A stretch of 46,776 nucleotides of DNA from a virus: positions 1-46,776 of IMG/VR virus record IMGVR_UViG_3300036832_001622. One strand, written 5' to 3'. A program made the position numbers and the translations under genes. This document shows, in pieces, positions 3,671 to 13,407 of the stretch. Numbering within the stretch: the stretch's first letter is position 1; every line of letters starts with the position of its first letter. The notes beneath the pieces were generated by a model that did no database searches, was not told where the DNA came from, and worked only from the letters and a program-made list of their open reading frames with translations.

Positions 3671-3713
3671 TATATAGGACAGAATGACCTATAGGTCAAG
3701 ATGACCTATATCA
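3671..3713 (-). promoter_or_regulatory. Sigma70 promoter with palindromic operator
   Basis: Read on the minus strand: TTGACC (3699-3694), 17 bases, TATATA (3676-3671). The perfect 14-bp palindrome TGACCTATAGGTCA (3685-3698) overlaps the -35, and a degenerate second copy, TGACCTATATCA, starts 17 bp away at 3702. The geometry fits a repressor site covering the -35 of the zinc-protein gene. Confidence 0.75.
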
Positions 3714-7159: not shown

Positions 7160-7356
7160 GACCCGCGCCGATATAAATCCGGTCGCAGGAGCTCCCGGCT
7201 GATGCCGGTCACGGCCTCGACCTGCAATAAGCGGTCGGCCGGAACGCGCCGCCATTCGGCAACTGATGTCTGTGAAATGCCGAGAGCTCGTGCCAACGGC
7301 CGCAATCCGCCGGCTTCCTCGATTGCACGTCTAAGACCTTCGTCAGGATCAACCAT
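7156..7356 (-). CDS. YdaS/Cro-like HTH protein
   Basis: 66 aa. Helix-turn-helix across residues about 17-50: GGLRPLARALGISQTSVAEWRR, then PADRLLQVEAVTGISRELLRPDLY, the typical ending of the YdaS family. YdaS proteins are Cro-like regulators of lambdoid-type prophages. It is divergent from the 7446 gene across a region with inverted repeats, which it may bind. Confidence 0.8.
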   Translation of the reverse strand: MVDPDEGLRRAIEEAGGLRPLARALGISQTSVAEWRRVPADRLLQVEAVTGISRELLRPDLYRRGS

Positions 7357-7362
7357 GGGCTC

Positions 7363-7413
7363 TTGACTTCTGTCCTGTTCGGTCTAACCTGACGCCGTCC
7401 GTAACTCACGGAC
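7363..7413 (+). promoter_or_regulatory. Promoter and inverted repeat before the 7446 gene
   Basis: TTGACT (7363-7368), 16 bases, TAACCT (7385-7390). Downstream is a perfect hairpin GTCCGT-AACTC-ACGGAC (7397-7413). Outer arms TCTGTCC (7369) and GGACAGA (7410) also face each other. The divergent YdaS-like protein is the likely binder. Confidence 0.55.
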
Positions 7414-7445
7414 AGAGAATGCCACAACGGACGGGAGAATGCCAA

Positions 7446-8075: not shown

Positions 8076-8099
8076 GGGGGCCGCAAAGGTCCCCTTTTT
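8076..8099 (+). terminator. Rho-independent terminator
   Basis: GGGGGCC-GCAAA-GGTCCCC followed by TTTTTC, 18 bases after the stop of the 7446 gene. Confidence 0.85.
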
Positions 8100-8108
8100 C
8101 TTTCTCCG

Positions 8109-8273
8109 ATGCGTCAGGAAATCAAGGCACAGATATATGAGCTTGCCCGCCAATTGCGGATTGCGGGCGATATCGCTCTGGCCGAGGCAATCATCAACAC
8201 ATTAAGGATGCACGACAATGAAGCTGCACTATGTTCCGCTCGATCAAATCGTCTGGAACCCATGGAGAGATAA
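8109..8273 (+). CDS. Possible 54-aa helical protein
   Basis: The reading starts MRQEIKAQIYELARQLRIAG and overlaps the first 56 bases of the ParB-like gene. There is no clear ribosome site, and it begins just after the terminator. Helical composition is the only support. Confidence 0.3.
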   Translation: MRQEIKAQIYELARQLRIAGDIALAEAIINTLRMHDNEAALCSARSNRLEPMER

Positions 8274-9372
8274 GAAATTGTTTCCGATCGACGCCGAGCA
8301 CGTCGCCGGCTTGCGCGCCTCGATCAAAGAACATGGTTTCTTTTCCAGTGTGAAGGGCCGCCGCCGCGAAGGCAAGGTTGAGCTCGGTTGCGGGCATGCT
8401 CGCTTCGAGGCCGCCAAGAAGGCCGGCGAGGAAACCATGCCGATCTTTATCGATGACATCGACGACGACCAGATGCTTGCCCTGATGAGCGACGAGAATG
8501 CGTTGCAATATGGCAACAACGCTGGCGCGATCATGAATGAAGTGGCGGCCGCCACAAGACGGGTGATCGAGGGACTTTTGGCGACATCCCCGACAATTGT
8601 CGGGGATCTCCCCGGCGCAGTTAGACGGGCTTTTGCATCAAAGATGGCAATCGATTCTGCGCGCACCAAGCTTCGCGGCAACAGCCCACATCTGGCTTTC
8701 GGTATCGATATTATCCACGCCTATCTCCGCGAGCATCGAGGCGAGCGGGCGATTCGCGAAGCGATGGCCGCGCTCAAACAATCCGGCGTCTATAACGAGA
8801 TCGTCGAGGAAGAAGTATCTAAGCATCCGGAACCGGTCGCCGACAAGCCAGCGGCGAAGACGACCGCCGTCATGAAGGCGAAGCCATCTCCGCCACCAGC
8901 GCCGCGCTTGCTTGATGAGCGCACAGCAAGCGTCTTCGAAAATGATTATCAATTCCATACTTTCCGCCAAGCGATAACGACACCGACGGCGAGAAAGGTG
9001 ATTCCTGTTAAAGAGCAACTGGCGCTCGCCAAATCAATCATGGATTCCAAGCCCGAAGGCGGCGGCCCTCGAAAACGTCTCACGGCTGGACAGATCCAGC
9101 GCCGTGTCCAGAATGAAGTTGAAACCGCGATCAAAAAACAACGTGAAATGGATAAAGAGGAACGGGAACGCTATCTCGCTGAGCAACGCGATGCCGTTAT
9201 TGATTCTCAATTGCTGATTGCCAACGGCGCATTGCGTGGGATGATTAGCGCCATTGCCAAGTTAATCGATCTCGCCGAGAAATATCCCCATCATCCCAAG
9301 CTCGGCGGATTCAGTGCAAAGCTAGATACGCTCGTTTCCGCTATTCAGCAATTCAGCAAGAAACTCAAATGA
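8218..9372 (+). CDS. ParB/Srx-domain protein
   Basis: 384 aa. N-terminal ParB-like domain (about 1-110): a start resembling other ParB proteins (VPLDQIVWNPWRDKK), LRASIKEHGFF, then GCGHARFEAAKKAG (57-70), the ParB box II region. An HTH-like helical middle follows, then a Lys/Glu-rich coiled coil (about 300-350). Family roles include partition, transcription control and CTP-dependent DNA binding; no ParA is seen in this window. A perfect 22-bp palindrome lies inside the gene. Overlaps the next gene by ATGA. Confidence 0.8.
   Translation: MKLHYVPLDQIVWNPWRDKKLFPIDAEHVAGLRASIKEHGFFSSVKGRRREGKVELGCGHARFEAAKKAGEETMPIFIDDIDDDQMLALMSDENALQYGNNAGAIMNEVAAATRRVIEGLLATSPTIVGDLPGAVRRAFASKMAIDSARTKLRGNSPHLAFGIDIIHAYLREHRGERAIREAMAALKQSGVYNEIVEEEVSKHPEPVADKPAAKTTAVMKAKPSPPPAPRLLDERTASVFENDYQFHTFRQAITTPTARKVIPVKEQLALAKSIMDSKPEGGGPRKRLTAGQIQRRVQNEVETAIKKQREMDKEERERYLAEQRDAVIDSQLLIANGALRGMISAIAKLIDLAEKYPHHPKLGGFSAKLDTLVSAIQQFSKKLK
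8586..8607. repeat. Perfect 22-bp palindrome inside the ParB-like gene
   Basis: ATCCCCGACAA is followed directly by its exact reverse complement, with AATT at the centre. It encodes SPTIVGD in the middle of the protein. A palindrome of this length is rare by chance and may be a binding site, for example parS-like. Confidence 0.8.
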
Positions 9373-9602
9373 AGCGGCCATTAACGCGTGCTCAAATTAT
9401 CAAGATGATCATCCAAGACCCGCCGAGCAACGTAAGCACATTTGCTAAAAAAATCGGCTGCTCTAGAAGAGCAATTGCGCATGTAATCAAAGAGCTTGAA
9501 GCAAGAGGTCTTATCGCGCCGCGCACGCGCATGGATCGTTTTCTTTGGGATCAAGCATTGGCAGAAATTCTCGACGAATTCGAAACCGAGCATGAAAACT
9601 GA
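9369..9602 (+). CDS. Winged-helix DNA-binding protein
   Basis: 77 aa, ATGA-coupled to the ParB-like gene. SNVSTFAKKIGCSRRAIAHV is a helix-turn-helix, followed by a second helix and a wing (IKELEARGLIAPRTRMDRF) as in MarR/IclR-type proteins. Probably works with the ParB-like protein or as a local regulator. Confidence 0.7.
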   Translation: MKRPLTRAQIIKMIIQDPPSNVSTFAKKIGCSRRAIAHVIKELEARGLIAPRTRMDRFLWDQALAEILDEFETEHEN

Positions 9603-12877: not shown

Positions 12878-13407
12878 AATGCGGCCCTCCGTCGACCAAA
12901 CATCGGCGTTACCTCGAGGCTGCGCCGCGGCACAACAAGCGAGCAGGCATAATGCCAGAGCGCGCAGGCGTCGCTCTCGTTGAGATCCTTAATCGGCCAG
13001 CCGAGCGCGTGGCATTTTTGGAACACGCCGTCTTTGCCGGCATGCCGATCGAGACAGAAGTGTTGCCGCACATCTAGCACCGATGCCGTCGCGATATTGT
13101 AGATCCCGCGCAGATGCGCGACCGAACGAGCAACGCCGTGCAGGCCGGCCAGGCGGTCGCGTGTCGCCGTGCTGGTCGCGCCAAGCTTGGCTGCCGGCGG
13201 CAACATCGCCTCGAGGACGAGCATCGTCACCCGCGGATCTTGCCGCAACAATTCTGATAGCCAGGTCAGCGCCGCGGCGAATACCGCATTAGGCGAGCTC
13301 TCGGCATCACCGAACCGAACAAAGCCCGAGACTGGGCAAGCGTCGGTCGGCGCACCGCGAGCCCAGCCGGTCGTCGTTGCAAGGTCTAGCGCCAGGATCA
13401 TCGTCAT
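12874..13407 (-). CDS. RuvC-like Holliday-junction resolvase
   Basis: 177 aa with the RNase H-like RuvC layout: Asp8 in ILALDLATTTGWA, Glu66 in LVLEAML, and Asp146 in NESDACALWHYA. This matches phage RuvC-like nucleases that resolve branched DNA during replication or packaging. Overlaps both neighbours. Confidence 0.85.
   Translation of the reverse strand: MTMILALDLATTTGWARGAPTDACPVSGFVRFGDAESSPNAVFAAALTWLSELLRQDPRVTMLVLEAMLPPAAKLGATSTATRDRLAGLHGVARSVAHLRGIYNIATASVLDVRQHFCLDRHAGKDGVFQKCHALGWPIKDLNESDACALWHYACSLVVPRRSLEVTPMFGRRRAAL

Follow-up and report, generated by a model that had tools for sequence, protein, structure and literature searches.

A palindrome inside a phage parB-like gene is a candidate binding site for the gene's own product

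What is a perfect palindrome doing within the coding sequence of a phage ParB-like protein? The window analysed here, a virus contig of 46,776 bp that makes up the whole IMG/VR record and all of this genome on record, carries ATCCCCGACAATTGTCGGGGAT at positions 8586–8607, and we confirmed this as the exact 11 + 11 inverted repeat of 22 bp that an earlier note on the sequence had described. It is the longest zero-spacer perfect palindrome of the window. From base composition, 0.017 palindromes with arms of at least 11 nt are expected per window, and 1 of 60 first-order Markov copies of the window held a comparable one, close to the rarity of about 0.01 per window claimed earlier. A second copy, for which the note had proposed searching the rest of the phage genome, was not found anywhere in the window, even when three mismatches were allowed; if the contig is a fragment, further copies may lie outside it. 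The features of the locus are as follows.

8218–9372, plus strand: ParB-like gene (384 aa) that hosts the palindrome; PF02195, with Foldseek matches to Noc, KorB and ParB
8224–8484, plus strand: coding region of the ParB_N (NTP-binding) domain, residues 3–89, from the PF02195 match
8580–8613, no strand: imperfect 34-bp extension of the palindrome, with 15/17 pairs matched and two positions mismatched
8584–8613, plus strand: codons 123–132, the loop between helix 102–122 and the helix–turn–helix (HTH) helices in the AlphaFold2 model
8586–8607, no strand: 22-bp perfect palindrome ATCCCCGACAATTGTCGGGGAT, candidate parS/operator-like site, kept as a palindrome in orthologs
8614–8676, plus strand: first helices past the loop, residues 133–138 and 142–153, HTH-like and DNA-binding by fold match

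That the palindrome lies inside a ParB-domain gene, as also claimed earlier, was borne out by a PF02195 (ParB_N) match of the window protein at E 4.5e-9, above the cut-off; the same domain was matched by 8/8 homologs. ATCCCCGACAATTGTCGGGGAT covers codons 123–130 (T-S-P-T-I-V-G-D). An AlphaFold2 model from the eight homologs placed a helix at residues 102–122, a low-confidence loop at about 123–132 (pLDDT about 60 for block 121–130) and the next helices at 133–138 and 142–153, and the loop region was hypervariable in alignments. The best solved structures found by Foldseek were DNA-bound Noc (7ol9), KorB of RK2 (8qa9 and 8qa8) and ParB, with alignments of ~200 residues at E about 1e-6, although the TM-scores were low (about 0.2–0.28 by query length). 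A Pfam search of the protein gave no HTH domain, and the positions of the CTP motif were partly altered, with GHAR in place of GERR and EN kept. What is shown here, as a predicted model, is a ParB/KorB/Noc-like fold of the 384-aa protein. Given the modelled loop and the placement of the Foldseek matches, the palindrome lies in the DNA for a flexible junction between the NTP-binding domain and the putative DNA-binding domain.

Scans of viral sequences recovered five distinct orthologs (L021, L020, L013, L003 and L002, all that were retrievable) with 56–82% identity, and an inverted repeat was found at the same place in 5/5. L021 carries ATCCCCAACAATTGTTGGGGAT and encodes SPTIVGD like the window; its two differences, CCG to CCA and GTC to GTT, are synonymous and together restore the pairing. 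In L020 the repeat is TTTCTTCGGACAATTGTCCGGAGAAA, with one mismatch, and the core GGACAATTGTCC is displaced one base from the codon register, so that it is read in another frame and gives a different peptide. The repeat is GACCACCGGGACA-AA-TGTCCCGGTGGTC in L013 (identical in L011 and L012), GGGACAATTGTCCC in L003 (14 bp, plus outer GCGAC/GTCGC) and GTTTAGCCG-agattc-CGGCTAAAC in L002, the weakest of the orthologs with 9-nt arms and a 6-nt spacer. Loss of the palindrome in close relatives that keep the amino acids, which the earlier note had named as the finding that would count against a site, was not seen among the retrieved orthologs.

Across five orthologs, arms were paired in 94.5% of cells compared with 71.5% in shuffles, and arm covariation was 0.682 compared with 0.210 (sd 0.070) in shuffles, a value reached by 0/500 of them; slid registers gave covariation of at most 0.21. 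Against a synonymous-codon null, the symmetry was significant for the window (p = 0.0045), L021 (0.0010), L020 (0.0007) and L013 (0.0022), with weaker cases in L002 (0.04) and L003 (0.09, not significant alone). The paired synonymous changes in L021 and the frame shift of the palindrome in L020 indicate that selection holds the symmetry of the DNA rather than the peptide, and pairing and covariation above the shuffled level likewise indicate that DNA symmetry is what the orthologs keep. Of the earlier proposal that this is the protein's own parS-like site or operator, the part that posits a DNA site under selection has strong backing from the sequence comparisons, and the protein partner and role stay putative.

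The HTH region reads S-K-x-A-I in both the window and L021, and N-K-A-G-I in L003, which is closer overall; at half-site positions 6–7, the window and L021 have GG and L003 has CC. These few sequences are suggestive of HTH residues that change along with the outer bases of the half-site. L002, whose in-gene repeat is weak, has a further perfect palindrome of 22 bp, ATCCTTGACATATGTCAAGGAT, between genes (L002:572–593), with a half-site equal to that of the window at 8/11 positions. It is possibly a site of the same protein at another location. The pattern ATCCYYGACAWWTGTCRRGGAT had its sole match among the viral contigs in L002.

Linker repeats were also present in L009 and L024, more distant homologs with about 25% identity to the protein of the window; the two repeats (CGGTACCTC-g-GAGGTACCG and ACTTGTCCCTC-c-GAGGGACAAGT, respectively) agree at the centre and differ in the flanks. 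Beyond these, genome contigs scanned with the protein gave no relatives; tblastn against phage records gave no match for L021 or L024 and matched the window protein over the N-domain alone (24% of the query).

For comparison with other ParB families, we used a control set of nine ParB loci from phage and plasmid matches, chosen before their palindromes were known. A linker palindrome was present in 5/9, from four cyanobacterial plasmids (among them L035, with a reading frame that breaks off ahead of the palindrome) and a single gut phage, and absent in 4/9, namely Listeria (chromosomal type), Clostridioides noc, Chlorohelix and Priestia. Six gut-phage ParB sequences (for example, AACTTCATCCCAAGTTGGGATGAAGTT and AACTTCGTCGCCAATGGCGACGAAGTT) were 96.2% paired with covariation of 0.528 compared with 0.140, and two gut relatives with a shorter linker, L054 and L055, had no palindrome. 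Six sites of cyanobacterial plasmid ParBs, built around AAYGTT, were 89.4% paired with covariation of 0.727 compared with 0.230. Among the 29 ParB genes scored, repeats occurred at 3.38 per kb in linkers compared with 0.18 per kb in the rest of parB and 0.18 per kb outside, the first value being inflated and not an unbiased rate, since plasmid and gut relatives were added from families already seen to have repeats.

On the near-relative plasmids p057_F and pn6, CCATAACGTTATGG occurs three times, always in the parB linker and nowhere else on the plasmid; on plasmid3 of Nostoc sp. HK-01, GGAGAAACGTTTCTCC occurs three times, solely within parB; and a Calothrix plasmid has copies both inside and outside parB. 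Cyanobacterial parB linkers were also seen to have grown by in-frame repeats (S-N-N-V-I-G-K or T-H-N-V-M-G; L043:3498–3832 and L037:2407–2548), the codons of which form parS-like palindromes, up to four per gene and the sole copies on some plasmids.

The earlier statement that the palindrome fits no known parS consensus holds for the two compared, as ATCCCCGACAATTGTCGGGGAT differs from both the chromosomal TGTTTCACGTGAAACA type (also taken from the Listeria site) and the repABC consensus GTTNNNNGCNNNNAAC (PMC9040568). We considered its 18-bp core as a dispersed family and rejected this, because it was found in three viral contigs, without visible relationship to the window, which is about the chance level estimated for the collection. 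Separately, an apparently unrelated phage carries this core, CCCCGACAATTGTCGGGG, twice, 8 kb apart (L006:4895–4912 and 12987–13004; also L005 and L007), each copy in L006 being followed by GGCGAACGCC directly past gene ends. Elsewhere in the window, at 3672–3711, inverted units ATATAGGACAGAATGACCTATAGGTCAAGATGACCTATAT are repeated at a gene end in an operator-like manner.

The phage encodes integrase, primase/helicase, RuvC-like, RecE-like and RecT-like, endolysin and tail proteins. A ParA-type ATPase (AAA_31) was not matched in the window or in the record of L003, the most similar phage, in a search whose control was positive in 14/14 genomes. Set against the description of a parABS system, the locus thus has a conserved palindrome in parB as a candidate parS and no parA found beside parB. 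With a single site in the contig and no parA found, classical partition is unlikely. The palindrome lies about 1.15–1.24 kb from a divergent intergenic region, 7359–7445, which, judged by gene layout, should hold the operon promoter; a sigma-70-like promoter was not matched in 7359–7445.

Several further elements were noted around parB. Directly 3′ of it is a gene for a 77-aa winged-HTH protein (window 9369–9602; a 78-aa counterpart is present in L003), which could partner the ParB-like protein as KorA does KorB. By reading of the sequences, small YdaS/Cro-like HTH genes stand divergent from the conserved gene 5′ of parB in the window (7209–7357, minus strand), with counterparts at L002:1020–1220, L003:3930–4232 and L013:837–1040. 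Between this conserved upstream gene of ~200 aa and the ParB gene are hairpins (window 8076–8094, terminator-like with a T-rich tail; L002:1920–1947; and L013:1778–1801), possibly a conserved attenuator.

We propose, with a probability of about 0.7, that the palindrome is a duplex-DNA site for a symmetric dimer, most likely the ParB-like protein of its own gene, and that this parS/operator-like site is housed in codons for a tolerant loop. Speaking against this are the single site and the missing parA match, the weak or short in-gene repeats of L002 and L003, the lack of a palindrome in L054, L055 and four control genes, the choice of plasmid and gut relatives from families known to have it, and the low TM-scores. 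ParB-family proteins dock by their HTH on palindromes and then form a CTP-dependent sliding clamp, and KorB silences promoters more than 1 kb away (PMC11790492). By this reasoning, the ParB dimer would dock on the palindrome through the HTH encoded immediately downstream. It would then close into a nucleotide-dependent clamp and slide off along the DNA, as KorB, Noc and ParB do, and might repress its own operon promoter, about 1.1–1.2 kb upstream, or bring ParB onto the phage genome, or both. We infer the binding partner, the nucleotide (CTP) dependence, the sliding and repression as the output; autorepression and/or ParB loading are favoured because ParB and KorB act from palindromes, KorB doing so over a distance similar to that from the promoter here.

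Covariation between the arms would also be expected if selection acted on RNA, and an mRNA hairpin in the coding sequence, acting in translational pausing between domains, in autogenous control of translation or in mRNA stability, would accommodate both the L020 mismatch, which would be a G-U pair, and the L002 repeat, which makes a 9-bp stem with a 6-nt loop. However, in each of the three families most members have a spacer of 0 or 1, which is useless to an RNA loop, the 81-nt region folds no better than shuffles (z −0.87), and some cyanobacterial parB genes have several identical sites, in some cases also outside parB; we regard a hairpin as improbable. Symmetry that continues to the centre, where a hairpin loop need not be complementary, favours a dimeric protein on duplex DNA. 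Such a dimer could be another one, for instance the 77-aa winged-HTH protein (9369–9602), the repressor of the phage or a regulator from the host, with the location in the ParB gene incidental. One site per phage, the intergenic position of the similar palindrome in L002, as expected of an operator, and the small HTH gene adjoining parB are all in keeping with this, but we think it unlikely, as three ParB families with little in common in their gene neighbourhoods use the same linker, an argument for ParB as the binder. The recurrence of the site in ParB genes of separate families is likewise what leads us to favour ParB itself as the binder.

Two further explanations concern how the palindrome arose. 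It could be a small mobile element of palindromic sequence, inserted in frame where a protein loop permits, like the Rickettsia palindromic elements; in the gut family it does coincide with extra residues, which are absent in L054 and L055, and it is repeated inside cyanobacterial linkers. Against this, the arms of the orthologs differ and covary, copies are restricted to parB on three plasmids and the window holds one copy, making such an element very doubtful. Chance or codon usage, with alignments picked after the fact, can draw on a lone 22-bp palindrome being a 1–2% event per window and on the codons for TIV, ACA-ATT-GTC, which favour the palindrome core, yet it is scarcely credible in the face of the synonymous-codon nulls, the covariation controls and the replication in other ParB families. 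The palindrome is probably the docking site of the ParB-like protein itself, on the evidence of these comparisons.

Intragenic parS sites are already known, in SCP1 parB1 and in Listeria parB. In Bacillus, too, the parB gene spo0J has parS inside it. In SCP1, ChIP-seq located a set of parS1 sites that are also bound in vitro, one of them normally lying within parB1, and the complementing parB1 allele was recoded to remove the internal parS1 (PMC13245405). The Listeria gene (L032) contains the canonical TGTTTCACGTGAAACA, outside the N-domain/HTH linker. What SCP1 parB1, Listeria and spo0J share with the window is a palindromic ParB site in a parB reading frame, the window's site being putative. 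In contrast to these systems, no parA was found in the phage, and whereas the canonical chromosomal parS is nearly invariant, the window-type site varies from phage to phage and sits between the N domain and the HTH. The palindromic parS of repABC is found on alphaproteobacterial replicons, with some sites at the 5′ end of repB, but is mostly intergenic and accompanied by repA, and its consensus is unmatched by the window (PMC9040568).

KorB of RK2 with its OB sites is similar in being a ParB-fold repressor at operator sites, some of them more than 1 kb from the promoter, and is matched structurally by the window protein (8qa9 and 8qa8); descriptions of the OB sites, however, place them upstream of the promoters they control, whereas the candidate site of the window is inside its own gene, and the CTP clamp and KorA partner shown for KorB (PMC11790492) can only be guessed by analogy for the window protein. 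Noc is a ParB relative with altered site specificity (PMC7383237), and its DNA-bound form, 7ol9, is the best Foldseek match of the window protein, but its NBS sites are described as conserved and chromosome-wide, whereas the window's site is single and variable. Because the locus departs from parABS in having no parA and from chromosomal and repABC parS in sequence, we class it as a putative ParB-type self-site in linker codons. The open-licence literature yielded no prior description of an N-domain/HTH-linker site whose arms covary in families of both phages and plasmids; in those papers, neither the constant place in the linker nor the covariation appears to be described, and nor does the presence of such a site in a ParA-less phage.

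A broader idea, which we offer tentatively and hold to be rather less likely than its opposite, is that site and reader form one cassette across several ParB families of phages and plasmids, the site staying in linker codons directly ahead of those for the HTH that reads it, and that ParA-less phages use this layout for a clamp-type autorepressor. If so, recombination or gene transfer would always move a matching site/HTH pair, and new incompatibility types could come about when site flanks and HTH residues change together. A practical warning is that an over-expressed gene that had not been recoded would titrate its own product, a concern also raised for SCP1 parB1. The binding site of an uncharacterized ParB-like protein may be predictable from its own gene without ChIP-seq in several phage and plasmid families, and these genes would offer a natural set of co-changing sites and HTHs for studying the divergence of ParB specificity and plasmid incompatibility.
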